The notes under the pieces: generated by a model
Database searches by the model: none
What the model saw: only the letters and a program-made list of their open reading frames with translations
Told to the model about the DNA's origin: nothing
IMG/VR virus record: IMGVR_UViG_3300020183_000503
Location: 1-22,337 of that record
Direction: 5' to 3' (one strand)
Length of the DNA stretch: 22,337 nt
DNA from: a virus
Part shown: positions 4,679-22,125 of the stretch, in pieces
Position numbering within the stretch: the first letter of the stretch is position 1
How the letters are laid out: each line of letters starts with the position of its first letter
Made by a program: the position numbers and the translations under genes

Positions 4679-7600
4679 ATGGCTAGGACCTCGGCTACAA
4701 TTTCAGTAGGAGCAGATACAAGGCAACTCGAAAGAGATATTCAGAGCGCCTTAAGCAGAGATTTTAAATTCAAAGGAATTAATGAAAAAGCATTTACCCA
4801 GCCGTTGGGCAGAATCACGGGGGCTGCAAATGAATTTCAAAAATCATTAGATGCGTCAAATGCTCGTGTTATTGCATTCGGTGCTAGTGCAGGATTAATT
4901 TATACTGTAGAAAGAGCTTTTGTAGATTTAATTAAAAGTACAGTAGAAGTTCAAAAATCATTAACTGATATTAACGTTATTTTAAATACAACTGCTCAAG
5001 GATTAACTAAATTTGGTGGAGAGGTATTCAATATAGCTAAAAGCACTGGCCAGTCATTTCAAGCCGTTGCTCAAGCAGCAACAGAATTTGCTCGTCAAGG
5101 TCTAGGCGTAGAAGAAACGTTAAAAAGGACTAGAGATGCATTAGTGCTAACTAGATTAAGTGGACTAGATGTTGTAAGTTCCGTTGAAGCCCTAACTGCT
5201 ACAGTAAACAGCTTTAACAAAGTAGCATTAGATTCAACGACTGTAATTAACAAATTAGCCAATGTTGACGCAGCATTTGCTGTAAGTTCGGCAGATCTTG
5301 CAAATGCTATTTCAAGAGTTGGTAGTTCTGCGCAAGACGCAGGAGTATCTTTTGATGAATTATTAGGTATTGTGACGAGTGTTCAACAAACAACTGCCAG
5401 AGGTGGCGCAGTTATTGGAAACTCTTTAAAAACAATTTTCACACGAATACAAAGAACAGATGTTTTAGATCAACTCCAATCTTTAGGAATTAATGTAAGA
5501 GATTTAGAAGGAAATACTTTACCAGCTTTACAAATATTAAGAGAGTTAGGAACAACATTCGATACTCTAGCAGACTCTCAAAGAGCTCAAGTTGCAGAAA
5601 GCGTTGGCGGCGTGTTTCAAATTAACGTTTTAAAAGCAGCTTTAGGGGATTTAGGGAAAGAATATTCTATATATGAAAGAGCTTTAAAAACTTCTGTATC
5701 TTCAACAGACGAAGCAATAAAAAGAAATGAAGCTTTAAATGAAACAGTCTCAGCTTTATTTAATCGTACAGTTGCTAATGTAACACAATTGAGCGCAGCC
5801 TTTGGAGCAGGAGCTTTTCAACCAGCAATTGAAAGTACATTAAAAAATATTAATAAAGTTCTAGAGTTCATAAGCAATCAAGATAGTGAAAGTATTGGCG
5901 GAAAACTTGGAGAAGGAATTCTAAAAGGACTTTCAACTTTTATTTCTGGCCCTGGTCTAGTATTAATAACAGCTGTTATTGGTAAACTAAGTTTAGATTT
6001 AGCAAAATTTGCAGCTTCAGGTTTTAAAACTTTATTGGGTGTTAATCAGCAAGCAGAAGCAAGAGCTCAGATACAAGCAAAAATTAATCAAGTTTTAAGT
6101 CAAGAGCCTCAATTACTTGCAGCAATTAATGCTAAACAAGTTAATGTTTTATCTGTAGAAAATCAAATACTGAAAATACTGCGAGAACAAAACGCTCTAA
6201 GAACTCAGGCTGCAACATTATCTTCAACTATTTCTGCATCTTTAGCTAGAAGAGGTGTTGGGGTACAGGGCGGACAAATTACTACCAAATCTTCTGGATT
6301 TATACCTAATTATGCAATGTCAGAAATATATGGTGCTTTAGCAGGAGGATACAAACCAGGAAAATTAAAAGAAATGAATATTTCTGGAGAGGGAAAAATA
6401 ATATATAATTCTGCTGAAAAAGTTAAAAAATTCGCAGGCATGACTCAACCAGCGATTATGCCTCCTCAAAATAGCAAAGCGGGGAAAAATTATAAAGATA
6501 ATTTTATGAAGAAAAATGGTTTTGATCCTTATGCAAGTAACGGATACATACCAAATTTTATTACAAATGCCTTTTCTCAAAATGTTTCGGTATCAGAGGC
6601 AAGACAACAATATAGATTTCGAACATTAATGAACCAAGGTTATCAACCTTTGCGTGGAGAAGAAGCTGAAAGGGCTATGCTTAGATCTAATGAAAGTTTA
6701 TTTAGAGATCGAACATTGGTGCTAGAAGGGGGACAGGTATTTGTAAAATCTGGATCTAGAGGAATAATAACTCAGCAATTAAGAGAAAAAGAAAAAGCAA
6801 CGGCTGCTGGCAGAGGAGCAAAAGAAAGCTCGAAGCTAAGGAAGAATTATGTACTAGTTTATCCCTCAACTGCTGGTGGTCCTTCGATTTTAACAGGCGG
6901 AAATACTAAAAATGATGGATCATATAGATTTAGCGCATATCCCTTTCCAGGGGGAGATGCAGCGGTACCAGATCAGTTATACAAGGATGCAACAAATTCA
7001 TTAATACAAAATGCAAAAAATTATATAAGTTCTGTATCTTCTAGGCCGCAACTTGTTCAAAGCGCAAATTTTGAAAATTATGTTCGAGGAAATTTAAGTA
7101 GAAGCGCAGTAGAAGCAACTGTTGGACAGGTTTTTGAATCAGCAATAAAAGCCTCATTAAATAGAATTTCTACTAGTGAAATTAACACATTTGATTTAAA
7201 TCAAAATGAATTATACGCTCTATCTAAAAGATTTAAAAATACTGAGGAGCTAGGAAGATTTGCTTTTGGAGATTTAAAGAATTCGCTTTCTGAGGGAAAT
7301 TTAGATAGTTTTGCGGAGAAAATAGCTCGAACAGAAGGCAAGGGTGCTATTAAAAGAAAAACAAAATCTGGAGGTTTTATCCCCAATTTTACAGCTCTTG
7401 GAGAAGCTATAAGAAGAGAAGCTTCTGCAGGGATACCTGTATCGAGAATTCGAGTTGGGCAAGATAATAGATTAATGAGTCCTTACAACCCATTAGGCGT
7501 TGGAGTTTATAATACTGAAGACGAACCAAATGGAATTAAACAAGGAATTGCGGCACAAAAAAATATTAATGTTGCGAAAAAAGCAGGATCTTTTTCTGAA

Positions 7601-10600
7601 GGATTTATTCCTAATTTTGCTGGTCAATTTATGCAGATTGACCCTCAAACGCTTGCATCAATGACTGGGGCAGGAATGACGACTCAACAAGCTGGACTAC
7701 AGTTCCAAAAAACTTTTATAGCAGACGCACAAAAAGAGTTTCGTGGAATTGTAGATCAATTAAGAAATCAACAAATAAGTTTAAAAAATGCTAATAAACA
7801 AATTAATGACTTAGGTCAAAAATATAGTCTTTCAAACCAAAGTGTTGCGAATATGAATCGTAGCTTGCAAGGAGTTGCAAATGCTACAAGATCATTTAAT
7901 CAAAATGTTTCTAATTTAGAAAGATCTGCTGGAGGATTTTTAGGATTAGGTATCGGTAGGGGTAGGCAATTAAGAGAATTAGAAAGAATTAGAGACACTA
8001 CAACTGGTGAAAGGGCACAGAGAGCATCCGAAGCTTTAGGTAGAGCCCAACAAGCGAGACAAGCTGGTGGAGCAAGAGTACAAGGCGCAGGAATTGGTTT
8101 AAGCATAGGCGCACCAATACTTGCTCAAACAATTGCTGCTTCTAGACCAGGAGATAAAAATGCTCAAGCTGCCGCAGAGGGGATTGGAACATTTGCAAGT
8201 TTTGCTGGAGCTGGTGCTTTATTTGGGCCCTGGGGTATTGCTATAGGAGGAGCAATCGGAGCAATTGTTGGATTTAAAAAAGCTTTAGACACAGTTAATA
8301 GTAGAGTAGAAGAATTTTCTAGACAGGCAAGAGAATCGCAAAATAATCTTTCCAGATTTGGCGAAGATATTCAAGCATTTTTAGCTAACAGGACACAAGT
8401 AGAAGGATTAAGAAGTGGAGAAATAAAAGGAACTCAAGGAGATCTTCGCAAAGCAGAAAGAGAATCTCAAGCAAGTTTATCTAGGATATTTAATAGTGTT
8501 GGCCCAGAAGTTAAAGACCAAATTAAAAATGCTTTAGAATCAGGAAACGAAGAACAGCTAAGAGAAGCATTAGGAAGAGCTTCTATGGCAAAAGAATCCG
8601 CAAAAAGTATAGATGAGTTTACAAGTAAAATAATTGAACTAAAAGAAAAAGGAAAGCTCAAAGAAACATTTGACGAAAATATTACTGCTTTTGGTATGTT
8701 GCGAACAAAATCTGGAGAAACTTTTGCAGAATTATTTTCTAATAATGAAAAATTAATTAGATCATTATCTGGATATGCTAATGCTGTTGAATTAGTTTCA
8801 TTTACTACATCGAAAGGTCTAGAAGAACTAGAAAAATCTATAGCAAATGATCCTTTTGGCTTTACAAATATATCTGCTGTTGGTGAAGGGCCAAGAAGTA
8901 TTATGGAAACTGGCACGCTTCCATTCTCAGAAGAACAAATAAGCAAAAAGCTTAAAGATCTAGAATATGCATATTTAGAATCTATAGATGGACTAACTTC
9001 TCAATTAACTTCAACAGTTCCTGCAGACTTTTTAACAAGAACAGAAGAGAGTAAAAGAGCATTTGCATTACAAAGCTTGGCAACTGATTTGGCAAATGAA
9101 AGTCTTAAAAAATTTAACCAAGAAACAAGTTCTTTTGTACAAAATTTAGTAGATTCTAAGCAAATAACTGAAAAAAATGGTGCAGATATTAAAGATGCAT
9201 TTAAGGCTATTCTAGAGGGTCCAGGAGATCCAAAAGAAAAAATTGACAAAGTAATAGAAAAATTTAAAAGCTTAGGAGAAAATGGAGAATTAGCTGCAAA
9301 GGTACTAGAAAATGCATCTAAGGGATTATTTAATCTTAGTAAATTATCTGGAAATTTAAAACAGTTATTTATTCAGGGCGATGATGCTAACGCTATAGAC
9401 AGAAGAAATGCTGCAGCGCAAGCATTAAAAAGAGCAAATTTTGCAGATATTTTAAAAGATCCATTGTTTATGGAGCAGTATACTCCAGAAAATGTTCTTG
9501 GTGGTTTAATTAAAACTACAGCAGGAAAGATATCGGAAGGAACTCAAGACCAATTTAAAAGAGAAGAAATATTTACTGGATTTGCAGATGAATTTAAATC
9601 TGAACTTGATGCATTAGCTAGTGGTGCTAAATTAACTGATGAACAATTAGCAAAACTAAGTGCCGGAGCTGAAAGAGCAGCTCAAAAAGCATCTTTTTCA
9701 TCTGAAAATTTTTCATTCTTAAATAAAAATATCTCGGATGGAATATTAAGGCAAGAAGCTATTAATGAATATAAAAAGATTGAAGCTGATTTAACTAAAA
9801 AATTAAATGGAAATATTGATCTTCTTGCTCCTGCAGCTAAAAATGCTGCAGAAGAATTAGCTCTTATACAAAAAGCAAGACTTGGTCAATTATTCTTAGA
9901 GGAAAAAAATCAAAGATTAATACAAGGAGCTTATGCTAAAATAAAAACTCCTGGATTATTTGAAGGACTTGATGTAGAGGAAATGACTACAAGAACCGCT
10001 GCAGACTATGAAAAACTTGTAGCAGATCTAACCAATGAAGGAATTACTTCTATAAATACTAATGTATTTGATGAACAGGCTAGAACATTAGCAAAAGAAA
10101 GACTTAAAGCTTTAGAGCAAGAACAGTTAAATTTAATAAGAACCCAAGGAGGTTTATCAACAAGACAGGCCTCCGATGCGCAAGCTAGGTTCAGACAACT
10201 TAACCAAAGCAATCAAGCATTAAAAGAAGGATTTGATACTTTAAATGAAAGTATTGCTGATGCTAATTTAAGAGAAGAAGCTAAAAATATTTTACAAGAT
10301 AAACTAAGAACTTTAGAGGTTGAATATGAAGGAAATTTAATAAGATTAAATGCAGCCTCTGCAAATTTAATAGAGTTACTTACAATCCGAGCAAAATATG
10401 CAGAAGGAACAGTTTTCGCTGATGAACTCAAATCAGCAGAAGAAACAGCTCGAACAGAAAAGATTAGGCAGGGAAAATTTGAAGGAACTGATATTTTTGA
10501 TGCTTTTTCTGATGAAATGACTTATGGTCCTCAAGACGCTATGCGAGATTTAAATGCGATTGGAACAGATACAGCACGAACTCTTAAATCTGAATTTAAT

Positions 10601-12082
10601 AATGCATTTCAGTCTGTAATGGACGGGACGCAAGAAGTTGGAGATGCATTTAGAACTATGGCTTTAAATATATCAAGAAGAATACAACAGTTAGCATTAG
10701 ACATGACAACAAATCTCATGTTTAATAGTTTATTTAGTAGTTTTGGTGGTGTACCCTCTTTATTCAAGAATCCCCTCGGTATGAAACGTGGAGGAGTCAT
10801 CAAAGGATATTCTTCTGGAGGAAAAGTAGCCGGAGGCTCTGGAGTAAGAGATGATGTGCCAGCTATGCTAAACAAAGGAGAGTATGTTATAAGAAAATCT
10901 TCTGTTAATAAGTATGGAGAAGATTTTATGCAAAATCTAAATTCTGGAGGCGTAGTTTTAAGAGCAAGAGGTGGCGCTGGCGAAATAGGTAATCGCATGA
11001 ATAGACCATTTCAAGAAGATGGAACTTTTAGAGTAGAGCGAGTAAATAATTTGCCTATCGAAGCAATGAGAGCTCCACAAGGAATGGGAGCAACACCAGA
11101 TATTTCTATAAGAGGGGTAAGTGGAGGAGAGTTTTCTTCTGAACTTTTATCTGATTTTATATATACTGGTCAAGAATTTGGTTTACCTACAGGAGGAAAA
11201 TATGTTTTTGACCCAAGACTCACACCCGAAGCAATTCTAAGGGAAGATGATCCCATGAATCAATTAAGGCAAGGTAAGGTTGAAAGACTATCTATATTCC
11301 AAGGAGAAATACAAGCATATAAGGAATATCTCGCAGATTTAGAAGAAAGAAATAGACAAGAAAAAGCAAGAATTGATCAGTTAAACAAAGAACAACGATC
11401 AACCTATAAAAAACAACAAAATAATCTATTTTGGGGATCTTTGCTTCAAGCTGGCATGGCTGTTGGAGCGGGGTTATTTAGTCAATATGGCGTACCAGCC
11501 TTAAAACAAGCTTTTCAAGGATCTTCAGGATGGTCGAATTGGAGAAGCGGATCTTCCAGTTATGGTGAAAGCATGAATTTTAGTCCTCCTGGCAAAGCTA
11601 ATAGATATAATTTGAGAGGGACGGTTCCCTCTATTCGTCGTGGATATGCAAAAGGAGGAGTAGCAAATAAAGATACAATACCAGCTTTATTGATGGATGG
11701 AGAATATGTCATTAAGAAAGATATGGTTAACTTTTACGGGAAAAATTTCTTCGACAAACTAAATACAGGTAGAGTTAAAAAGTTTGCTGAAGGTGGTAGC
11801 GTAGGCAACCAAGGTGGATACTCAGATTCATCAACGTCTGCTACAACAAACAATACAAATAATATTAATATAACTGTTAATGTTGCAAAAGACGGTGGTT
11901 CGACTGAATCAAAAGAAGAAAATTCAAATAAAAAGAACCCAACAACAGAAAAAGAAAGACAAGAAGAAACAGACAGAAATAGATTATTATCAGAAAGAAT
12001 TAAGTCTGAAGTTGTTAAAGTAATCAACCAAGAGCAAAGACCTGGCGGATTATTAAGTAGCTCTAAGTATAAAATGAACTAA
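4679..12082 (+). CDS. Tail tape measure protein with inserted modules
   Basis: At 2467 residues this protein spans the tail lumen and sets tail length. By the usual rule of about 0.15 nm per residue it implies a tail of roughly 370 nm. Residues about 1-400 form the TP901-type tape-measure core (GFSFDELLGI-like and RGGAVIGNSLKTIFTRIQR segments). A hydrophobic stretch follows near 430-450. Motifs G-[FY]-I-P-N-[FY] begin at 540, 622, 899 and 975 and bound modules, including a PD-(D/E)XK-like one (E820, D839, D865-L-K867). A Gly/Ala-rich membrane-prone segment lies at about 1168-1202, then long coiled-coil regions. Near the end two copies of a GEYVI module (2035-2099, 2322-2373) flank another hydrophobic stretch. 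The C-terminus carries an Asn/Thr-rich linker and VINQEQRPGGLL. RBS AAAGG at 4666-4670. It shares its stop-codon bases with a convergent gene. Confidence 0.95.
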   Translation: MARTSATISVGADTRQLERDIQSALSRDFKFKGINEKAFTQPLGRITGAANEFQKSLDASNARVIAFGASAGLIYTVERAFVDLIKSTVEVQKSLTDINVILNTTAQGLTKFGGEVFNIAKSTGQSFQAVAQAATEFARQGLGVEETLKRTRDALVLTRLSGLDVVSSVEALTATVNSFNKVALDSTTVINKLANVDAAFAVSSADLANAISRVGSSAQDAGVSFDELLGIVTSVQQTTARGGAVIGNSLKTIFTRIQRTDVLDQLQSLGINVRDLEGNTLPALQILRELGTTFDTLADSQRAQVAESVGGVFQINVLKAALGDLGKEYSIYERALKTSVSSTDEAIKRNEALNETVSALFNRTVANVTQLSAAFGAGAFQPAIESTLKNINKVLEFISNQDSESIGGKLGEGILKGLSTFISGPGLVLITAVIGKLSLDLAKFAASGFKTLLGVNQQAEARAQIQAKINQVLSQEPQLLAAINAKQVNVLSVENQILKILREQNALRTQAATLSSTISASLARRGVGVQGGQITTKSSGFIPNYAMSEIYGALAGGYKPGKLKEMNISGEGKIIYNSAEKVKKFAGMTQPAIMPPQNSKAGKNYKDNFMKKNGFDPYASNGYIPNFITNAFSQNVSVSEARQQYRFRTLMNQGYQPLRGEEAERAMLRSNESLFRDRTLVLEGGQVFVKSGSRGIITQQLREKEKATAAGRGAKESSKLRKNYVLVYPSTAGGPSILTGGNTKNDGSYRFSAYPFPGGDAAVPDQLYKDATNSLIQNAKNYISSVSSRPQLVQSANFENYVRGNLSRSAVEATVGQVFESAIKASLNRISTSEINTFDLNQNELYALSKRFKNTEELGRFAFGDLKNSLSEGNLDSFAEKIARTEGKGAIKRKTKSGGFIPNFTALGEAIRREASAGIPVSRIRVGQDNRLMSPYNPLGVGVYNTEDEPNGIKQGIAAQKNINVAKKAGSFSEGFIPNFAGQFMQIDPQTLASMTGAGMTTQQAGLQFQKTFIADAQKEFRGIVDQLRNQQISLKNANKQINDLGQKYSLSNQSVANMNRSLQGVANATRSFNQNVSNLERSAGGFLGLGIGRGRQLRELERIRDTTTGERAQRASEALGRAQQARQAGGARVQGAGIGLSIGAPILAQTIAASRPGDKNAQAAAEGIGTFASFAGAGALFGPWGIAIGGAIGAIVGFKKALDTVNSRVEEFSRQARESQNNLSRFGEDIQAFLANRTQVEGLRSGEIKGTQGDLRKAERESQASLSRIFNSVGPEVKDQIKNALESGNEEQLREALGRASMAKESAKSIDEFTSKIIELKEKGKLKETFDENITAFGMLRTKSGETFAELFSNNEKLIRSLSGYANAVELVSFTTSKGLEELEKSIANDPFGFTNISAVGEGPRSIMETGTLPFSEEQISKKLKDLEYAYLESIDGLTSQLTSTVPADFLTRTEESKRAFALQSLATDLANESLKKFNQETSSFVQNLVDSKQITEKNGADIKDAFKAILEGPGDPKEKIDKVIEKFKSLGENGELAAKVLENASKGLFNLSKLSGNLKQLFIQGDDANAIDRRNAAAQALKRANFADILKDPLFMEQYTPENVLGGLIKTTAGKISEGTQDQFKREEIFTGFADEFKSELDALASGAKLTDEQLAKLSAGAERAAQKASFSSENFSFLNKNISDGILRQEAINEYKKIEADLTKKLNGNIDLLAPAAKNAAEELALIQKARLGQLFLEEKNQRLIQGAYAKIKTPGLFEGLDVEEMTTRTAADYEKLVADLTNEGITSINTNVFDEQARTLAKERLKALEQEQLNLIRTQGGLSTRQASDAQARFRQLNQSNQALKEGFDTLNESIADANLREEAKNILQDKLRTLEVEYEGNLIRLNAASANLIELLTIRAKYAEGTVFADELKSAEETARTEKIRQGKFEGTDIFDAFSDEMTYGPQDAMRDLNAIGTDTARTLKSEFNNAFQSVMDGTQEVGDAFRTMALNISRRIQQLALDMTTNLMFNSLFSSFGGVPSLFKNPLGMKRGGVIKGYSSGGKVAGGSGVRDDVPAMLNKGEYVIRKSSVNKYGEDFMQNLNSGGVVLRARGGAGEIGNRMNRPFQEDGTFRVERVNNLPIEAMRAPQGMGATPDISIRGVSGGEFSSELLSDFIYTGQEFGLPTGGKYVFDPRLTPEAILREDDPMNQLRQGKVERLSIFQGEIQAYKEYLADLEERNRQEKARIDQLNKEQRSTYKKQQNNLFWGSLLQAGMAVGAGLFSQYGVPALKQAFQGSSGWSNWRSGSSSYGESMNFSPPGKANRYNLRGTVPSIRRGYAKGGVANKDTIPALLMDGEYVIKKDMVNFYGKNFFDKLNTGRVKKFAEGGSVGNQGGYSDSSTSATTNNTNNINITVNVAKDGGSTESKEENSNKKNPTTEKERQEETDRNRLLSERIKSEVVKVINQEQRPGGLLSSSKYKMN
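6296..7618 (+). repeat. Four G-[FY]-I-P-N-[FY] motifs bounding tape-measure modules
   Basis: Within the tape measure, GFIPNY (residue 540), GYIPNF (622), GFIPNF (899) and GFIPNF (975) are spaced 82, 277 and 76 residues apart. The segments between them differ completely: YKPG...QPAIMPP...GFDPYAS in the first; a basic and aromatic segment plus a nuclease-like module in the second; and AIRREASAGIP...NPLGVGVYNTEDEP in the third. I recall these block types from other phage tape measures. The regular boundaries suggest a cassette structure in which modules can be exchanged. Confidence 0.8.
7121..7324 (+). other. PD-(D/E)XK-like nuclease module inside the tape measure
   Basis: Residues about 815-882 of the tape measure read VGQVFESAIKASL, then NTFDLN, then FAFGDLKNSLSEGNLDSF. 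Candidate active-site residues in the classical order are E820 (helix), D839, and D865-x-K867. The G-x-x-F-E helix and the D-x-K strand followed by S..N..S are what I would expect of this superfamily. The PD proline is missing (FD instead), so activity is uncertain. The assignment is inference from motif order. Confidence 0.4.
10781..10975 (+). repeat. GEYVI module, copy 1 (tape-measure C-terminal region)
   Basis: Residues about 2035-2099 of the tape measure. The core reads D-D-V-P-A-M-L-N-K-GEYVI-R-K-S-S-V-N-K-YG and is followed by F-x3-LN-S-G. Copy 2, 223 residues after the end of this one, shares the pattern [VI]PA-x-L-x2-GEYVI-x-K-x2-VN-x-YG-x2-F-x3-LN-x-G. Both copies are flanked by Gly-rich linkers ending in GG. 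Confidence 0.85.
11642..11803 (+). repeat. GEYVI module, copy 2 (tape-measure C-terminal region)
   Basis: Residues about 2322-2375 of the tape measure; the core reads T-I-P-A-L-L-M-D-GEYVI-K-K-D-M-V-N-F-YG and is followed by F-x3-LN-T-G. It is a diverged protein-level repeat of copy 1. Between the copies lie an acidic helix and a hydrophobic segment (LLQAGMAVGAGLFSQYG). Confidence 0.85.
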
Positions 12083-13482
12083 ACAGATTTAACTTGTATT
12101 TCAAAAGGAATTTGTTTGTATATTAAATCTTTTATTGGTATGTTTTTATCTGCTGCTAAAGCATTTAGTTCTTGCCAAGAATATTTGTAATAAAATAATA
12201 AAGTTAAATATAAATTATTATTATATAATTTACTATATTTTTTATCTAAAGATAACTTATTAGAAGAAATAAATACATTTTCTGTGGGATTTAAATTAGT
12301 CAAAAACTCAATATAGACTATAATTTCGTCATTTATATTATTAACGTTTAATATTTCTGCACTGATAATATTATTATGGCTAAAATATAATATATTATTT
12401 TCTATATTAATATAATTATTATTATAATAAAAACCAAGATCTACGTCAGGTATTGAGACTAGCATATCATCTTCGGGGCTTTCATCCCAAATACCTAATA
12501 CTGTTTTTTCTGTTGAAATATTTGAAATAGGAAAAAAGTTCTTATAGAAAATACCATTAATATTTTTATATTCTTTTGGCCAAGATAAATTTTGTAAATT
12601 CAAGTCATTGAATAAATAAAGGTTGCCTTGAAAAAAAGCATCTTTGTTTTTAGTGGAAATATTATATTCTAATTTCTGATTAAAATATTTTTCTTTAACA
12701 AGTATATACATTTCATCTTGGCTTACTAATTCTTGAAGTTGTTTAATTATATCTGATTGTAGTTTCGATAAAGGAAAAATCTCTAAATTAATATCTTTTA
12801 CCTCTTCTATCAAACCTACATCTTCAAATGGCGCAGTTAATAGTTTAAGATTATTGATTGAATTTAACCAATTTGATTCTATATTTTCTATAAAACTATA
12901 GGATAAATTTGTATCTATAGACTTAGGAAAAATTAATAAAGAATGCACACCAATTTCTTTTGTCTTAATAGGGTCTATAAGAAACTTTACAGAATATAAA
13001 TCATTACTACGATATACTTTATAAAAAATTGCATCCAAGTTATTTGCTTCTATACTAGGATATTCTATCTCAAAATCTAGATAGCTGGGTTCCTCTGAAT
13101 TAAATTTTACTTGAAATTTTAAATTAGAATAAAAACCAGGTTTGTTATTTAAACTTTTATATTTTAAGAAATTGTTTAAAAAACTATATTCAAAATAATT
13201 TTCAACAACTTTCTTTTTATTTCTATTAAGTTCTAATTTTCTACCTAAATTTACACCTCGATTTAAATTTTTCGCAAGAGGCTTGGTTAGCATTATTTTA
13301 ACGGTTTCTCTTTTATTGTCTAGATTCTCTAAAGAATCTAATAATAATTCATTTTCATATATATAGACACTAAAGGAAGGAAAATATTTTGTTGATACTA
13401 AATCATTTGCATTATAAGCTGTTAATGCTGAGAATGTATTCCAATAAACTTTTAAATCTGGTTGTTTTGCTATTATCTTCAT
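12079..13482 (-). CDS. Unknown tail-tip cassette protein downstream of gpJ
   Basis: A 467-residue protein encoded last in the inverted tip operon. Its ATG overlaps the gpJ stop as ATGA, so it is co-translated with gpJ. Its stop (TAG on the minus strand, bases 12079-12081) overlaps the tape measure's TAA (12080-12082). The sequence is rich in Asn, Tyr, Ile, Leu and Lys with alternating hydrophobic patterns suggesting beta structure, and has no signal peptide, membrane segment, cysteine cluster or catalytic motif that I can see. A short basic stretch lies at about 100-115. In lambda the genes after J encode outer-membrane and side-fibre proteins, so a receptor-binding or tip-decorating role is plausible. 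I recognise no family. Confidence 0.75.
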   Translation of the reverse strand: MKIIAKQPDLKVYWNTFSALTAYNANDLVSTKYFPSFSVYIYENELLLDSLENLDNKRETVKIMLTKPLAKNLNRGVNLGRKLELNRNKKKVVENYFEYSFLNNFLKYKSLNNKPGFYSNLKFQVKFNSEEPSYLDFEIEYPSIEANNLDAIFYKVYRSNDLYSVKFLIDPIKTKEIGVHSLLIFPKSIDTNLSYSFIENIESNWLNSINNLKLLTAPFEDVGLIEEVKDINLEIFPLSKLQSDIIKQLQELVSQDEMYILVKEKYFNQKLEYNISTKNKDAFFQGNLYLFNDLNLQNLSWPKEYKNINGIFYKNFFPISNISTEKTVLGIWDESPEDDMLVSIPDVDLGFYYNNNYINIENNILYFSHNNIISAEILNVNNINDEIIVYIEFLTNLNPTENVFISSNKLSLDKKYSKLYNNNLYLTLLFYYKYSWQELNALAADKNIPIKDLIYKQIPFEIQVKSV

Positions 13483-16400
13483 GGTTGGCCTTCAACATTT
13501 ACGCCAGAAGCAAGTACTTTATCCATTGGAGCTTGACTAGTTAATCTAAAAAATCCAGTAACCATAGGTGACAATTCTTCTAGTGAATTTTTAGCAAAAA
13601 CTCTAAAGAAAAAGTCTCCGCTTTTTAATGGTGTTACATATGGCGGATATATCCCTAAAGAAGTTCCGCCAGCTCCTGTTGGGAAAAATCCAGTCTGTGG
13701 ATTTGCAGGTAATATATCTATCAAATCATTAACATCTAAAGCTTGAGAGGAAAAATTAATTCCGCTTCTCATATATACCAAGTATTGACTAACAAACTGA
13801 GAGTTTACCAGAGGACGTTGAACCGAGTATGCTATACTATTAATTCCATTAGAACTTACAACTCCTCCATATAGCCTTTTATTTGATCCAGTTAAATTTC
13901 CTAATGCGTCTCTAAATAAGCCACTTAATAATAATATTGGAGCTTGCGGAACTTCTGGTTTTAATGCCACATTTGTTAATTTTGCGTCAAGATCAATTTC
14001 TCCATATTTCTGAGGGACAAATTCCATAGCAGAAATATTGAATGTTCCTTTTTCCGTATTCTCTTTTATATTTAAAACTCTATAAAGTTGAGGTTTATTT
14101 AAAAAGCTATCATAAAATGCACCTGGATAAGTTAAATTATTAGAGTTATTAATTGGAGATCTTATATCTATACCTGTATATCCTGATGTATTTACATCTA
14201 TATTCCATATTGTATTTTGCAATAAGACATGATTTCCGCTATTTAGTCCGCTCCCAACGGGAAAATTTATTCTTATATTATTTGAATAATATCCTGTTCC
14301 GCTTGTAATATAACCACTTGTTGGATTTGGTATAGTTATTTTTTGAATTCCACTTCTTCTAAAGAATTGTGTATTTAAACCCGTAGCCCCGCTATTGGTT
14401 ATATTGAATCCTGTTATATAGTTATCGCCAAGATCTGTGCCATACTGTAAATTAAAAGTTGGTGTTAAGAAGTAAATATCAAAGTTTGATCTAAAACCTG
14501 TAAGAGTATATAATATTCCGGTATTATATGGAAGGTCTAAAGTTGCGCTTCCTGTCGTTAACTCTTTTGTTCTCCCCGCATAACTTACATTGCTTCTGTT
14601 CTGATCATAAATCTGAACAACGTCTCCAGGCAAAAGATATGAAGCTTCTAGTCCTGCATCGAAATTTACAGTTTCTGTTTCTTCGTTTTCTGTTATTAAA
14701 AACCATTTTCCTAAACGTCTTGCTTGGTTTTTGCTTGTGCATCCAAATGCTGTTACTGATGTTTCTCTAATTCCATACTTCATAATGCCTTGCCTATACT
14801 CTACATATTCTACTGCGGGCTTATAGTTATTGTCTTGATCGTTAAATCTTATAACTGCTACTGTTTTTCTTGCTCTTCTTGAAGAATCTGAATAAGCAAA
14901 TTTTCCATCTACAACATTAGTATTATTAAATGCATATATTGGGTCTTTTGGTCTATCTTGAGCAGCAAATATCTGACCAGCGGAGTAATAGGTAATTCCT
15001 CTAAATATAGAAGCCATATCATTTAAAACTTTATAAGCTTCTTCTTTTGCTGCTATCATTAGGTTGCATGTAAATCTTGGCTCAAGACCTCCTTTCCCGT
15101 CTGGTACAAGCTGATCACAATATTGCGATATTTCATATAAATTCCATTTATCAACAAGGTCTCCATTTATATATTTTCCTAATCCATATCTATTATTTGT
15201 TATTAAGTCATAATAGCACCAAGCTGGGTTATCTGTCCAAGCTAACTTAAAAGACCCGTTCCAAAATCCGCTATAAGTTCTTAGATCTGTATTATAATTA
15301 CTAGGGACTTTAACTTTAAGAAGTCTCATTTTATAACTCCTAGTTGGAACACTATTAAAATATCTAGAATCAAATTCATTGTATACCATAGCTGCATTTG
15401 GATATACAAAGCGATCACTAAAAACTTCTGTGACAGAATCAATACTTGTTGCATTGGCAATCCCAGGCGGAAGACCTTCTTCTGTATTTTTTACTACCGT
15501 AACAGCCCATCCGACTTGATCTTGAAGTATTTCTACGTATGGAAAATTTTCTGCATATGGCCTAAATCCTACTTCGAATGTAATTAACATTGGAGAGCTA
15601 GATATTTTACCTTTAACAATAATATTTTCATTATAATAATAATCTCTTATATATGGCCAAAATTTTGAACTATCAACTAGAACTAAATCTCCATTCTTAA
15701 ATACTCTCATTAATAGAAATCCGATATTAAGTTGTTCTCTCGAGACATTTCCAGCGTTTCCTGCATTCACCGCTACAATTGTTTGACCAAGATTATTTAT
15801 TTTCAAATTTATTTTAATAGAAGAAAGATCTGTGTTGTAAAAATAATATACTTTTGGGAAACCGACGTCAAAAGTACCAGTTGTAATTATTGAGCCGTAT
15901 AATCTTTCGTTAATTCCCTTTGATCGTGAAGTAGGCAAAGGATACTTAAATTTGTCAGTTAAAGCTCCCCAATAATTATATCTATCTTCATAAAGATCAA
16001 TTCTGGGGTGGGCTTGAATATGAATATTTGGCTGAGCATAACTATATTTAAATTTTACTGATTTGAAGTTAAAATAACCATTTGCATCGACAATAGGTGT
16101 TTCATTCCAAAAAATTGATCTTGCTTCTGGTGGAGCTTCAATGTAAGTGTTGCCGTCTTCCGATCCTCCATAATATCCTGAACTTGTAAATGGAACAAAT
16201 GTTACTGCTCGATAGCCAATATCTCCTGTTGTTCTACCTGAGTAATCATAGAAATAATTTCCAGTTACGAATCCTTCTATCGGTCCTTCGCAAATTAAAT
16301 CTAATACTCCAACTTTTGTTATACTTGTGATTGATACATTACCAGTTTGAGATGTTGTTCCATACCCATCTGCTGGATCTGGGGCAACCCCATAAACTAT

Positions 16401-16751
16401 ATTATATCTATCTGTAAAAGGTGGGGCTCCATAAACCACTGTGGGAGTTCTTGTATCAATAGAAGAAATGCTTCCAAATAAACAATTATTATCAAAGTTT
16501 GTAATTGGGCATGTTGGATCATTAAAAGTAAGAATCTGGCTAGAATAAGAAGCAAATCCGCTTATGGCTGTGTTTCCATTATAATATGTATTACCAAATA
16601 CATCATATCCACTAAAAAGTAAATCATTATTTCCATAAGCCGCATCCATCACATCACTATCTGCAAAAGTCATTCCTTCAAACGAAAGCCCATATGTGCC
16701 TGGGCCATAAATGTACTCTAAACCCTCAGAATATAAATTTGAATTTCCCAT
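13479..16751 (-). CDS. J: Tail tip attachment protein, lambda gpJ homologue
   Basis: At 1090 residues this is the central tip and host-specificity protein. Lambda-J landmarks appear in order: DLICEGPIEGF at 151-161, KVPSNYNTDLRTYSGFWNG near 490, DNPAWCYYDLITNNRYGLGK near 506, QYCDQLVPDGKGGLEPRFTC, the VLNDMASIFRG helix near 575, FGCTSKNQARRLGKW, LLPGDVVQIYD near 710, and YRVLNIKEN...MEFVPQKY near 905-925, followed by a probable fibronectin-III-type domain from about 930. EGPIEG lies near residue 31 in lambda J as I recall it, so about 120 residues rich in Gly, Tyr and Asn have been added at the N-terminus. The segment between the GD-V-V motif and YRV is also longer. It starts one base after gpI stops and overlaps the next gene by ATGA. 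Confidence 0.93.
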   Translation of the reverse strand: MGNSNLYSEGLEYIYGPGTYGLSFEGMTFADSDVMDAAYGNNDLLFSGYDVFGNTYYNGNTAISGFASYSSQILTFNDPTCPITNFDNNCLFGSISSIDTRTPTVVYGAPPFTDRYNIVYGVAPDPADGYGTTSQTGNVSITSITKVGVLDLICEGPIEGFVTGNYFYDYSGRTTGDIGYRAVTFVPFTSSGYYGGSEDGNTYIEAPPEARSIFWNETPIVDANGYFNFKSVKFKYSYAQPNIHIQAHPRIDLYEDRYNYWGALTDKFKYPLPTSRSKGINERLYGSIITTGTFDVGFPKVYYFYNTDLSSIKINLKINNLGQTIVAVNAGNAGNVSREQLNIGFLLMRVFKNGDLVLVDSSKFWPYIRDYYYNENIIVKGKISSSPMLITFEVGFRPYAENFPYVEILQDQVGWAVTVVKNTEEGLPPGIANATSIDSVTEVFSDRFVYPNAAMVYNEFDSRYFNSVPTRSYKMRLLKVKVPSNYNTDLRTYSGFWNGSFKLAWTDNPAWCYYDLITNNRYGLGKYINGDLVDKWNLYEISQYCDQLVPDGKGGLEPRFTCNLMIAAKEEAYKVLNDMASIFRGITYYSAGQIFAAQDRPKDPIYAFNNTNVVDGKFAYSDSSRRARKTVAVIRFNDQDNNYKPAVEYVEYRQGIMKYGIRETSVTAFGCTSKNQARRLGKWFLITENEETETVNFDAGLEASYLLPGDVVQIYDQNRSNVSYAGRTKELTTGSATLDLPYNTGILYTLTGFRSNFDIYFLTPTFNLQYGTDLGDNYITGFNITNSGATGLNTQFFRRSGIQKITIPNPTSGYITSGTGYYSNNIRINFPVGSGLNSGNHVLLQNTIWNIDVNTSGYTGIDIRSPINNSNNLTYPGAFYDSFLNKPQLYRVLNIKENTEKGTFNISAMEFVPQKYGEIDLDAKLTNVALKPEVPQAPILLLSGLFRDALGNLTGSNKRLYGGVVSSNGINSIAYSVQRPLVNSQFVSQYLVYMRSGINFSSQALDVNDLIDILPANPQTGFFPTGAGGTSLGIYPPYVTPLKSGDFFFRVFAKNSLEELSPMVTGFFRLTSQAPMDKVLASGVNVEGQP

Positions 16752-16752
16752 A

Positions 16753-17505
16753 TTAGAAGTTTATTTCATTTATAATTGGACTTTGGCCAATTAATTTACA
16801 TTGCGAGTTAAATAAATATGTAAAAGCTCCAGAACTTGTAGTATTATTATACTCATTAACTCCTCGTTTATTTGTCTTATATTGTATGTCATAAGATGCA
16901 TATACATTGTTCGATCCTATTAACAGAGTTCCATATCCGACGGGGACTGGGCCTCCTTCACCTACTGTATTTACGGGTCCGTTAAATAAATATGAGCTAG
17001 GACCTCCGACTTCTCCAGCAGAAGTATTTATAGGATCTGCTTGCTGTGCGCTAAATGGAATTAAAGGAGGAGGCTTGCTCAATAAAGATGTAACTCCGGC
17101 CGCAAGTAATCCAACTCCCGCAAGGATTAATAATGGAGCAAGAGGTGGTACAAATATTGCTACAACAATAAGAATAACAGCTATAAAGATCATAAAGAAA
17201 CTTCTTGAGCCCATAATTTCAGGAAAAATATCTATTGTTTCAAGTTTATCTCCATATTCCATAAAAACTTCGGAATTCTTAAACTCCTCGACTTTCATAT
17301 CTTCTTTAAAAGTTAAAAATTTATTATTAACCGATATTGCGTAGGAAGAGTAGCCTTGTTCATTAGCATGGTCTAGAAACCATTTTCTTAGATTCCTAGT
17401 GTTTGCTTCAATAGCCCTCATAGCTTCTGCTACGGAAGACACATCAAGCTCCCAAGATTTTCCTAAATCTTCTCCAAGCTTTCCATGTAAATTAACACGC
17501 ACCAT
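16753..17505 (-). CDS. I: Tail assembly protein, lambda gpI homologue
   Basis: A 250-residue protein with the lambda gpI layout. An N-terminal ubiquitin-like beta-grasp region spans about 1-95 (MVRVNLHGKLGEDLG). A long hydrophobic segment covers 103-142 (FFMIFIAVILIVVAIFVPP and a second leucine/alanine-rich stretch). Then come a Pro-rich link and the family signature SYLFNGPVNT (171-180) with GGPVPVGYGTLLIGS (184-198). About 45 residues follow the signature. GGAG on the minus strand (bases 17515-17518), inside the end of gpK, is 9 bases before the ATG and supports the start. In lambda, gpI is needed for tip assembly with gpJ, gpK and gpL. The hydrophobic segment suggests membrane contact in tip assembly or DNA entry. 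Confidence 0.92.
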   Translation of the reverse strand: MVRVNLHGKLGEDLGKSWELDVSSVAEAMRAIEANTRNLRKWFLDHANEQGYSSYAISVNNKFLTFKEDMKVEEFKNSEVFMEYGDKLETIDIFPEIMGSRSFFMIFIAVILIVVAIFVPPLAPLLILAGVGLLAAGVTSLLSKPPPLIPFSAQQADPINTSAGEVGGPSSYLFNGPVNTVGEGGPVPVGYGTLLIGSNNVYASYDIQYKTNKRGVNEYNNTTSSGAFTYLFNSQCKLIGQSPIINEINF

Positions 17506-17507
17506 CT

Positions 17508-18221
17508 TTATTTTCTCCTAAAAATTCCAATTTTTTTTCTATTATAATAATTACAGTAATTTTTTATTCTAGAAAAAGCATTTCTTGGTTGTTCTAAAAT
17601 TTTATTATTTCCTAAATATATTGCAAAATGAAAATAATTATCTATATTAAACAACAAAATATCGTTAACCTGTAAAGAAATCTCTTCTTGTAAGAAGATC
17701 ATATTATTTGGTTGAATATATTTAACAATTTCAGAAAGATTTTTTTCTGTCACTTCTAACTTATCTGTTTGATTTAAATCTATTGGAAATTTTATATTAA
17801 AATTTAATTCTTCTGAGTAATATTTTCTAACTAAATCAAAACAATGCGTATTATGAAAGTCAATGCTTCTTCCAATATATTTAACGGCATCAGAATTATT
17901 TGCTGTATAATGTTTAAAAATATTCTTTTTAAGTACGTACAGAACCATGTCTATTTTTGATTCTTCTGAGCATATTTTATCCATGATCGAAAAATTTTCT
18001 TCTTCATTGTGGCTATGATATATATAAAGTATGTTATGATGATGTTTATTAACAAGAAAATCTCTGCTTGAAATCTTAAAATTATTTAAAGGGTCCTTTG
18101 CTATATTTTCGCATTCTATAACATCAAGATCTCCATTTTTTTCTATAATAAAACCACAGCATTCTAATGGATCTTGATTTTTTGCATGATTGATAATTTT
18201 ATTTTTTATTTTAGTATTCAT
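17508..18221 (-). CDS. K: Tail tip peptidase, lambda gpK homologue (JAMM + NlpC/P60)
   Basis: A 237-residue two-domain protein. The N-terminal JAB/MPN (JAMM) metallopeptidase domain has E20, H69-S-H71, S78 and D81. The spacing from H71 to S78 is six residues where the canonical motif has seven. The C-terminal NlpC/P60 cysteine-peptidase domain has C127 in THCFDLVRKYY and H198 in FHFAIYLG; Q211 in the following strand could be the third catalytic residue. Together these suggest cutting of peptidoglycan crosslinks during entry or proteolytic processing of tip components. The start overlaps the gpL stop by one base (TAATG). Gene order L-K-I-J matches lambda exactly. Confidence 0.92.
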   Translation of the reverse strand: MNTKIKNKIINHAKNQDPLECCGFIIEKNGDLDVIECENIAKDPLNNFKISSRDFLVNKHHHNILYIYHSHNEEENFSIMDKICSEESKIDMVLYVLKKNIFKHYTANNSDAVKYIGRSIDFHNTHCFDLVRKYYSEELNFNIKFPIDLNQTDKLEVTEKNLSEIVKYIQPNNMIFLQEEISLQVNDILLFNIDNYFHFAIYLGNNKILEQPRNAFSRIKNYCNYYNRKKIGIFRRK

Positions 18222-19612
18222 TATTGATTATTAGGTTGATCTGTTCCAGGAAAACCTCCGAATGGAAGAAATCCGTTTAGATATCCTCCTGTATAATCTT
18301 TTGGTATGCCATGGGCGTAATCTGCAATTGGGTTCCATACTGCTGGTCTTCTTGGAAAATAAACACCAGTCCCACCAACTCCAGTTAATACAAACTCCAG
18401 ACTACTTAGCATACTAGTTGAGTCTCCTGCTAGTTTAAAATAAGAATCAGCTTTTTTATATTTATCTAAAGTCCATCCACCTCTGTTTGTTGGCCAAATA
18501 ACCGGTCTAAATGCAGGATTTTTAAGCCATCTTAATCTACAAGCGGAAATACTTTTTGAGCAACTGTCAGAAAGCCAATGAACGGCGTTTGGGGGAGAAT
18601 TTTGATAAGTAGAAGTATGGTTATTAATACAAACAAAATAATAGTTTAATTTATTGTTTTGAAGATGTATAAAATCTCCGCTTACATATGCCACCCCTGT
18701 TGACCATGCTCCTAAATTTCCGGCGCCACCTGTTATTCTTGTTATTGCTGTTGAATCTGGAGCTACTCCAGTTCTAAAAACCGCACCAGAAGGACCAATA
18801 AATAATTGATCATTTTCTGTTGCGACAGGAGGAGCGGTTTGCAATAGTCTTATATTAACTCCAGGATTCGAAACTCCCGCATATACTCCACTGTGAACCG
18901 CTGATCTTCTAGAATCATATTCATACAAACACCCTTCGCCTCTATATTGGAAGGGGCATTTAGAAGCAAAAATTGTTCTTCCTGGCAAGGCAACACCTTC
19001 GACGTCAAGAATAGATCCTAGGGTATATTCTAATGTTAAATTATCTTCTTGATTTTTTCTGTCTATGTAGTAAACATCTTTGGGCAATTCTATCTCATAT
19101 ATAGAAGGATCATCTGTAAATGGATTAACGTTGCCAGAAAAATTAGATCCTTTTAAATATTTTAAAAATGTTTTTATTCTAGTAAATTTTGCCCCGACAA
19201 TGTCTCCCAATGATTCAATTTGCATTCTAATATATTTATAAAATGAATTTGTAGATGAATCGGGACTATTATTTGATATAAATAATCTTGGAGTTGGAAG
19301 TGTTCCTGCGCTATTCATTTCAAATCCGTCCGCAAAGATTGGCATTGGGAAGAATTGCTTATCCTTCCAAGTAATTATACCATATGGGTTAGTAGACATA
19401 TTATATAAATTATAATCATTATATATTCTTAAAATGCCATTCTGTATAGGTTGATTCGTAGGTAATGATGTGGTATTAATTGTTTGAGGATATACCGGGG
19501 TTAAGTCGATCTCATATAAAAAAACTTGAGAGGATGGTTCTAATTTTGCTATCTCTGCATTGATTGACCTATATCCACTAACAATTTGATTGTAAATTGA
19601 AATTGAGGACAT
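18221..19612 (-). CDS. L: Minor tail protein, lambda gpL homologue with large insertions
   Basis: At 463 residues it is about twice the length of lambda gpL (about 232). The family signature ALPGRTIFASKCPFQYRGEGC carries C219 and C228, and DSCSKSISACRLRW carries C351 and C358. Lambda gpL coordinates an iron-sulfur cluster with four cysteines, and the C-x8-C and C-x6-C spacings fit. The link between the pairs is 122 residues, where lambda has about 22. It contains a W...Y...YY...N...P...W module (303-347) and a fifth cysteine, C328. A second insertion separates C358 from the usual C-terminal LPFGGFPG (449-456). The gene starts two bases after gpM stops. It is a tip component that connects gpM to the gpJ complex. 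Confidence 0.92.
   Translation of the reverse strand: MSSISIYNQIVSGYRSINAEIAKLEPSSQVFLYEIDLTPVYPQTINTTSLPTNQPIQNGILRIYNDYNLYNMSTNPYGIITWKDKQFFPMPIFADGFEMNSAGTLPTPRLFISNNSPDSSTNSFYKYIRMQIESLGDIVGAKFTRIKTFLKYLKGSNFSGNVNPFTDDPSIYEIELPKDVYYIDRKNQEDNLTLEYTLGSILDVEGVALPGRTIFASKCPFQYRGEGCLYEYDSRRSAVHSGVYAGVSNPGVNIRLLQTAPPVATENDQLFIGPSGAVFRTGVAPDSTAITRITGGAGNLGAWSTGVAYVSGDFIHLQNNKLNYYFVCINNHTSTYQNSPPNAVHWLSDSCSKSISACRLRWLKNPAFRPVIWPTNRGGWTLDKYKKADSYFKLAGDSTSMLSSLEFVLTGVGGTGVYFPRRPAVWNPIADYAHGIPKDYTGGYLNGFLPFGGFPGTDQPNNQ
18572..18706 (-). other. Small aromatic (CBM5/12-like) module inside the gpL homologue
   Basis: Residues 303-347 of the gpL homologue: WSTGVAYVSGDFIHL, then NYYFVCINNHTS, then PPNAVHW. 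The spacing of W, Y, D/V, YY, N, P and W resembles small chitin-binding-type (CBM5/12) modules and the N-terminal segment of the adjacent gpM homologue. Sugar binding at the tip is inference only. Confidence 0.45.
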
Positions 19613-19614
19613 AA

Positions 19615-20160
19615 TTATGCTGGAACTTCTTCGAAAGTTGTCCGAATACTATAGTTATTATAAAAATTATATGCTACTTCCCAATTAGGGGCAATAAATT
19701 CTGTTATTTGTTGGCCTGTTCTTGCGTATATTGTTGGAACGTTATAGACGAAAGCTTCTCTACCGCCTCTTTGCTCTAAAAAGTGAAGGATTGATACAGT
19801 TTCTACTTCTGTTCTATTATCAAAATTTAAAGATAAATTTTTCATTTGAAAATTTAGTCCATCGGCAAATCTTTGCTGGTATCCATTTCCAAATTGGATT
19901 TTTTTTACTCTTGGTTCAATTTTTGAATTTGATTGATATGATGGTTTCCAGAAAAAATTAGGTACTAATACAGAATTTATTAAGATATAACCATCCCATT
20001 TGGATTGAAGATTGCTATTGGTTGTTGGGTTATTAGGCACGCCAAAATTACTATCTATAGAAGAATAGTAATATCTTGAATTTGATCCAGACACAATACT
20101 ATATTTATTATAGTTCCTAGTGCTAGACCAGCCATTAACTGTATCATATACGCTTGCCAT
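19615..20160 (-). CDS. M: Minor tail protein, lambda gpM homologue with N-terminal extension
   Basis: A 181-residue protein. Residues about 70-181 match the phage minor tail protein M family: FWKPSYQSNSKIEPRVKKIQ, FGNGYQQRFADGLNF, FLEQRGGREAFVYNVP, and a final RTTFEEV. Lambda gpM is about 109 residues, so about 69 residues are added in front, containing a W...Y...YYSS...P...W module (11-58). In lambda, gpM joins the tape measure/tube end to gpL at the tip. It is the first gene of the minus-strand tip operon. A GTGTAAA motif (20181-20187) lies 20 bases upstream, with AAAAGG closer to the ATG. The gene is divergent from the tube-like gene at 20213. Confidence 0.93.
   Translation of the reverse strand: MASVYDTVNGWSSTRNYNKYSIVSGSNSRYYYSSIDSNFGVPNNPTTNSNLQSKWDGYILINSVLVPNFFWKPSYQSNSKIEPRVKKIQFGNGYQQRFADGLNFQMKNLSLNFDNRTEVETVSILHFLEQRGGREAFVYNVPTIYARTGQQITEFIAPNWEVAYNFYNNYSIRTTFEEVPA
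19987..20130 (-). other. Small aromatic (CBM5/12-like) module at the N-terminus of the gpM homologue
   Basis: Residues 11-58: WSSTRNYNKYSIVSG, then SRYYYSSIDSNFGVP, then a W followed by DGY. It is outside the region shared with lambda gpM and parallels residues 303-347 of the neighbouring gpL homologue. The module could be a sugar-binding or protein-docking unit. Confidence 0.45.
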
Positions 20161-21774: not shown

Positions 21775-22125
21775 ATGCCATCAGGAACAGTAGGAACTGG
21801 AGATGAAAAATGCCCTTGCAAACCAGATTGCGAGTGCAATCTTGCTACTACAGCATGTTGCTGCGACGCAGGTTGCGATGGAGTAGCTGGCAAATGCCCA
21901 GACTGTGGTTGCACAGATCCAAAAGCAAAAAATTATGACCCTAAAGCTACATTGGATGATTGTAGCTGCAATAACAAATGTCATCATAATTCGGGTCATC
22001 CAGGATGCTCTGGTTCTTCAAATTTTGATATTAAAAAAGTAAAAACTAAGCGAGCTGGACTAGAAGGATACGCAAATCTTATCGGGCCAGAGATGTTAAT
22101 CATAGACGAATTATTAGATATATAA
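21775..22125 (+). CDS. Cysteine-rich protein with CTDPxAxNY...DDxSC motif
   Basis: A 116-residue protein with 15 cysteines, all in residues 13-78, in patterns such as CPC, CEC, CCC, CGC and CSC. Residues 46-65 read CTDPKAKNYDPKATLDDCSC. This is a variant of a Cys-bounded motif (CTDPxAxNYxxxAxxDDGSC) that I recall from many extracellular proteins of Bacteroidetes and from aquatic phages; here the usual Gly before S-C is a Cys. CHHNSGHPGC (69-78) could bind metal. The last 35 residues are Cys-free (KKVKTKRAGLEGYANLIGPE) and look like a separate tail, perhaps for attachment to the virion. There is no signal peptide. The role is unknown: a disulfide- or metal-stabilised virion decoration and a metal-binding intracellular protein are both possible. 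Confidence 0.7.
   Translation: MPSGTVGTGDEKCPCKPDCECNLATTACCCDAGCDGVAGKCPDCGCTDPKAKNYDPKATLDDCSCNNKCHHNSGHPGCSGSSNFDIKKVKTKRAGLEGYANLIGPEMLIIDELLDI

Follow-up and report, generated by a model that had tools for sequence, protein, structure and literature searches.

The window analysed here, the whole 22,337-base sequence of the IMG/VR virus record IMGVR_UViG_3300020183_000503 (GC content about 33%), is probably a fragment of a virus genome. Its longest ORF, a single uninterrupted reading frame on the plus strand (positions 4679..12082), encodes a tape measure protein of 2467 amino acids. The conserved tape-measure core is recognized by a PhageMin_Tail profile match (E=1.2e-29) at residues 120-311 (5036..5611, plus strand), and PHROG "tail length tape measure" families match the same ORF, down to 3e-54. 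Tail assembly and minor tail genes (PHROG) and a gene for a JAB plus NlpC/P60-like protein lie in its neighborhood, so that the region can be assigned as a tail module in which the core-bearing longest ORF stands among tail genes. The minor tail, JAB/NlpC and tail assembly genes, together with the gene for a 1090-aa protein, occupy the minus strand at positions 12079-20160 and converge on the tape measure gene. In phage lambda, the tail genes are co-directional, whereas the tail-tip genes here lie on the strand opposite to the tape measure. Tape measure proteins set the length of the tail, and tailed phages push them into the bacterium along with the DNA; they are usually viewed as rulers and DNA conduits.

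A short recurring motif of the GFIPNF type divides the middle part of this protein. It is found four times, at residues 540-545 (GFIPNY, 6296..6313), 622-627 (GYIPNF, 6542..6559), 899-904 (GFIPNF, 7373..7390) and 975-980 (GFIPNF, 7601..7618), all on the plus strand, as are all tape-measure features described below. The first two motifs enclose a conserved segment of about 75 amino acids (GALAGGYKPG...YNSAE...QPAIMPP; 6314..6541), which is matched in many relatives, and the last two enclose a conserved segment of about 70 amino acids (IRVGQD...NPLGVGVYNTEDEPNGIKQGI; 7391..7600), which is matched in most relatives. Across at least about 300 related loci, such motifs occur up to nine times per tape measure and separate otherwise variable segments. 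The proteins we gathered contain 914 occurrences, compared with 3 after shuffling, a contrast that is overstated because the loci were picked by that same motif. A protease site, a linker or a docking motif are possible roles; in the open-access literature, which leaves most subscription journals outside its scope, we found no description of these motifs.

Between the second and the third motif, the initial annotation had proposed a nuclease-like module of the PD-(D/E)XK type at residues 815-882, which correspond exactly to positions 7121-7324. The residues G816 (7124), E820 (7136), D839 (7193), D865 (7271) and K867 (7277) are located as it had stated and form the signature G816-x-x-F819-E820, D839, D865-x-K867 between GYIPNF (622) and GFIPNF (899). 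This pattern occurs once in the protein. A loose version of it was also matched in 15 of 2000 composition-shuffled copies of the tape measure, and the single sequence therefore provides modest evidence only. What raises the signature above chance is its conservation across a large and divergent family.

Queries with the module against Pfam, PHROGs, PDB sequences and cultured phages gave no credible match, and relatives were therefore sought through the flanking motif. Searches for close relatives, with the module or with the whole tape measure, each returned one contig of 90% identity and nothing else. DNA-pattern scans of IMG/VR for GFIPNFA, GFVPNFA and GYIPNFA yielded at least about 300 loci, nearly all of which, among those listed, encode long proteins in which GFIPNF-type motifs recur; many of these proteins have a recognizable tape-measure core. 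Within these, a regular expression followed by an iterated HMM identified at least 181 copies of the module in at least 170 proteins from uncultured viruses. Among the copies listed, position 816 is glycine in 178 of 178, position 820 is glutamate in 173 and aspartate in 5 of 178 (motif I; 7136..7138), and position 839 is aspartate in 180 of 180 (motif II; 7193..7195). In motif III, D865-L-K867 (7271..7279), position 865 is occupied exclusively by aspartate (129) or glutamate (52), and lysine 867 is retained in 178 of 181 copies. Position 881 (7319..7321) is lysine in 149 and glutamine in 28 copies. The seeds required aspartate at 865 and ignored 881, so that neither the D/E exchange nor the K/Q alternation was built into the search. 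In a first alignment of 60 rows with a mean column identity of 15%, G816, D839 and K867 were the only invariant columns.

When the 11 motif columns were masked in the HMM, the non-seed loci still showed G816 in 60/60, E/D820 in 60/60, D/E865 in 55/61 and K867 in 55/61 cases; D839 was recovered in 45/62, the remainder being apparently misaligned. On a FastTree phylogeny, position 865 switched between aspartate and glutamate at least 11 times and never to a non-acidic residue, a count that tends to be lowered by the inclusion of column 865 in the tree. This position thus behaves as expected for a metal ligand. A tblastn search with four different members against 50,697 cultured-phage records gave no match. 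A cellular origin of the module was rejected for the two orders tested, since it was found in none of 424 other bacterial genomes; the two contigs that came from genome bins (L123, L126) probably derive from viruses.

Structure prediction gave a confident model of a domain that is larger than initially annotated. AlphaFold2 with 60 sequences for residues 628-898 (271 aa) reached a pLDDT of 81.6 and a pTM of 0.66, and with 135 sequences for residues 718-898 (181 aa) a pLDDT of 87.9 and a pTM of 0.80. Since the same confident model also takes in three strands and two helices on the N-terminal side, the folded domain extends over residues ~718-898 (6830..7372), while the interval 815-882 holds the catalytic-motif core. 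The N-terminal beta strands cover residues 724-757 (6848..6949; DSSP strands 7-13, 19-23 and 32-40 of the model) and precede the putative catalytic helix. In both models, every conserved residue lies in or adjoins the helix or strand that is expected for PD-(D/E)XK enzymes: in the 718-898 model, E820 is on the helix (91-109) that would correspond to the first core helix, D839 adjoins a short strand (a one-residue assignment), D865-x-K867 is located at the next strand (146-149), and K881 takes the K/Q position in the helix that follows (155-168).

The order of these elements is less orthodox. The canonical PD-(D/E)XK core runs alpha-beta-beta-beta-alpha-beta. Our model, with two short helices omitted, reads beta-beta-beta-alpha-alpha-alpha(E820)-beta(D839)-alpha-beta(D865-x-K867)-alpha(K881) and thus departs from the canonical order: three strands stand N-terminal to the E helix, no strand is predicted between E820 and D839, and a helix intervenes between D and (D/E)-x-K. 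The strand order is therefore probably non-canonical, and since the canonical E-to-D strand is absent while three strands are found at the N-terminus, the predicted sheet is perhaps permuted. With the superfamily, including VRR-Nuc and TseV3, the module shares the ordered E, D and (D/E)-x-K, the D/E exchange at motif III, a K/Q in the helix after it and the secondary-structure setting of these residues.

The motif reading of the initial annotation is borne out by the conservation of E, D and (D/E)-x-K in at least 181 copies; membership in the PD-(D/E)XK fold is putative, as no solved structure of this superfamily matched the models. Foldseek found no match for the 271-aa model in PDB and BFVD and no convincing one in PDB for the 181-aa model, for which the best hits were GTPases (E=0.037, TM ~0.2). 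VIA-align reached best Z scores of 3.7 (271-aa model) and 3.8 (181-aa model; trigger factor and Hsp70), with no nuclease listed. Pfam, PHROGs and PDB-sequence searches likewise revealed no relationship to a known nuclease family. Matches to plant lectins among PDB sequences (E ~0.001-0.06) extend over 35-50 residues and were regarded as spurious, and PADLOC matches to CARF_PDDEXK (0.0045), HamA (0.018) and Cas4 (0.054) were discounted, as their number is about what chance would give in 135 scans. The absence of a structural match is weak evidence and not a sign of a different fold, because TseV3, a proven PD-(D/E)xK effector, likewise attains a best structural Z of just 3.8, to known VRR-Nuc (PMC9635880).

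Few parts of the tape measure are under stronger constraint than the module. In comparison with a relative that is 90% identical over the module (L001), residues 628-898 have a dN/dS of 0.045, and the motif core 815-882 has 0.028, the lowest value of any stretch measured. Residues 1-540 stand at 0.081, and the ratio rises to 0.29 in residues 981-1500 and to 0.34 in residues 1500-2467; these ratios are approximate, because several dS values exceed 1. The initial annotation had also considered that the module might be a relic. We reject this reading, since the catalytic positions are kept across the family and the dN/dS of the module is 0.045.

Among the listed tape measures that combine the core with at least 800 further amino acids, 104 of 127 carry the module, in a sample biased towards GFIPNF proteins. 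It follows the core motif at a stable distance, with a median of 545 residues. By inspection, most of the 23 module-negative tape measures show other nuclease-like signatures in the same region, for example E-V-K-S-G, E-I-K-S-G and E-F-K-A-G after an aspartate, and SNase-like segments (SNase E=0.014). Profile comparison suggests that some unassigned segments are missed members of the module family. A variant subfamily (L018, L092, L100, L136, L186 and L195) retains G-x-x-F-E and the D motif and has GDAH/ADAH, ADAY or similar in place of D-x-K, often followed by GxGH; its active site is perhaps altered or inactive. Four tape measures (L020, L089, L064 and L065) contain two module copies each, and in the last three of these one copy lacks the N-terminal strands and has a C-terminal extension instead, which may hint at a permuted strand order.

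Other inter-motif segments of the relatives resemble further enzymes. Pfam recognizes an acetyltransferase (GNAT; 7e-5) and a GHKL ATPase (5e-5), the sole such segments with E < 1e-4; others resemble, by eye only, ADP-ribosyltransferases, protein kinases and HAD phosphatases. Tape measures with GNAT, GHKL ATPase, SNase, ADP-ribosyltransferase, kinase, HAD phosphatase or ParB-like segments include those of L048, L121, L086, L040, L027, L005, L032, L172 and others.

Several known systems share individual traits with this locus. The nearest published concept is that of the polyvalent proteins (Iyer et al. 2017, PMC5512222), in which enzymatic domains of diverse kinds are united in one large protein that is believed to accompany the DNA into the host. 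The carrier differs: here the tape measure plays this part, its segments being set apart by GFIPNF-type motifs, and the text of that paper contains no occurrence of "tape" and does not name a tape measure as a carrier. Polyvalent proteins combine at least two unrelated enzymatic domains; the window holds one enzymatic-looking module, and in the relatives this region contains others. Tme, a tape-measure-related effector of the contractile injection systems of Streptomyces davawensis, has a proven endonuclease domain (PMC11126660) and is thus another case of a tail-like machine whose tape-measure-like protein bears a nuclease domain. The Tme domain is EndA-like (DRGH, H-N-N), C-terminal and part of a bacterial injection system, whereas the domain described here is PD-(D/E)XK-like, internal and part of a phage tape measure; the DRGH motif of the Tme type is absent from the 2467-aa protein. 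SNIPE (PMC13190303) likewise places a nuclease where the tape measure guides DNA into the cell, with the difference that SNIPE is a membrane nuclease of the host that acts against phage DNA, whereas the nuclease-like domain here is the phage's. In the open-access literature, most subscription journals being outside that scope, we found no paper that describes a phage tape measure with an internal domain of the PD-(D/E)XK type, and no experiment on this family.

The domain at residues ~718-898, with its conserved signature, confidently predicted fold, constraint and wide occurrence, is best explained, at a probability of roughly 0.6, as an intact metal-dependent nuclease of the PD-(D/E)XK type that is carried by the tape measure, delivered at infection and directed against the DNA of the host or of a competitor; its activity, delivery and target are what we infer here. 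The nuclease domain, which has a constant place between linker motifs of the GFIPNF type, would travel in the tail lumen within the tape measure. On ejection it would pass into the cell envelope and the cytoplasm, either before the genome or together with it. In the presence of a divalent metal it would cleave DNA, the likeliest substrate being host DNA or that of a resident competitor at the start of infection. Since the domain recurs in the majority of the sampled uncultured relatives, these phages may deliver a nuclease at infection, and such a delivery appears plausible by analogy, because the lambda tape measure is labelled by the inner-membrane protein ManZ during injection (PMC13190303) and because Tme has an endonuclease domain (PMC11126660). 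A tail-borne nuclease must, however, have some way to avoid cutting its own genome, which counts against this reading; the phage genome could be spared through timing, position or modification.

Alternatively, the nuclease could act on the phage's own DNA or its entry, by trimming or nicking the genome end or by clearing periplasmic DNA. The near-universal presence of the module (104/127 listed GFIPNF tape measures) would suit a function tied to infection better than optional weaponry, and the nuclease domain of Tme resembles the DNA-entry endonuclease EndA (PMC11126660), but the varied nuclease-like segments in the region look more like weapons or counter-defence than like one conserved step of DNA processing, and we regard such a role as unlikely. 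Slightly less likely again is that the acid/acid/acid-x-K set belongs to another, non-nuclease enzyme or binding fold. A confident model that matches no solved PD-(D/E)XK structure and has a non-canonical strand order would be in keeping with this, yet five positions, among them the K/Q in the helix after motif III, agree with the superfamily in order, spacing and secondary-structure context, and the low structural score of the proven TseV3 (PMC9635880) lessens the force of the missing match. The least probable of these alternatives is a module that binds DNA or metal without cutting, in which an inactivated nuclease fold would be kept for a structural role, for leading the DNA or for docking. 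The missing structural match and the GDAH/GDAY variants, which show that the lysine can be lost, fit this idea; K867 is nevertheless kept in nearly all listed copies (178/181), and the acidic positions change only between D and E. Inactive nucleases normally lose these catalytic residues.

A nuclease delivered with the tape measure would bear on what phages do to their host in the first seconds of entry. A catalytic signature that widely diverged phages have kept in their tape measures would turn this protein into an enzyme that is injected, and thereby offer a testable reason for the length and modularity of these proteins. The module would also point to an undescribed nuclease family that is absent from Pfam and PHROGs. 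More tentatively, and with somewhat less than even odds in our estimation, the tape measure of a large group of uncultured tailed phages could be a modular effector carrier, in which GFIPNF-type motifs part exchangeable segments. One slot would nearly always hold a nuclease, usually of this undescribed and possibly permuted PD-(D/E)XK family and otherwise of another nuclease-like fold, other slots would hold acetyltransferase-, kinase-, ADP-ribosyltransferase-, phosphatase- or ATPase-like segments, and all of them would be delivered with the genome.

Downstream of the module, a glycine-zipper-like hydrophobic stretch is found at residues 1174-1203 (8198-8287 of the window, within EGIGTFASFAGAGALFGPWGIAIGGAIGAIVGF). 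A GxxxGxxxG pattern is present no more than 700 residues downstream of the module in 80 of 113 module-bearing tape measures, and a hydrophobic 19-mer in 49 of 113; in the DNase effector Tde1, a glycine zipper is needed for translocation (PMC10240207). Near the end of the window, a small cysteine-rich ORF (CPCKPDCECNLATTACCCDAGC...CPDCGC; 21775-22125, plus strand) encodes a product that possibly binds metal.
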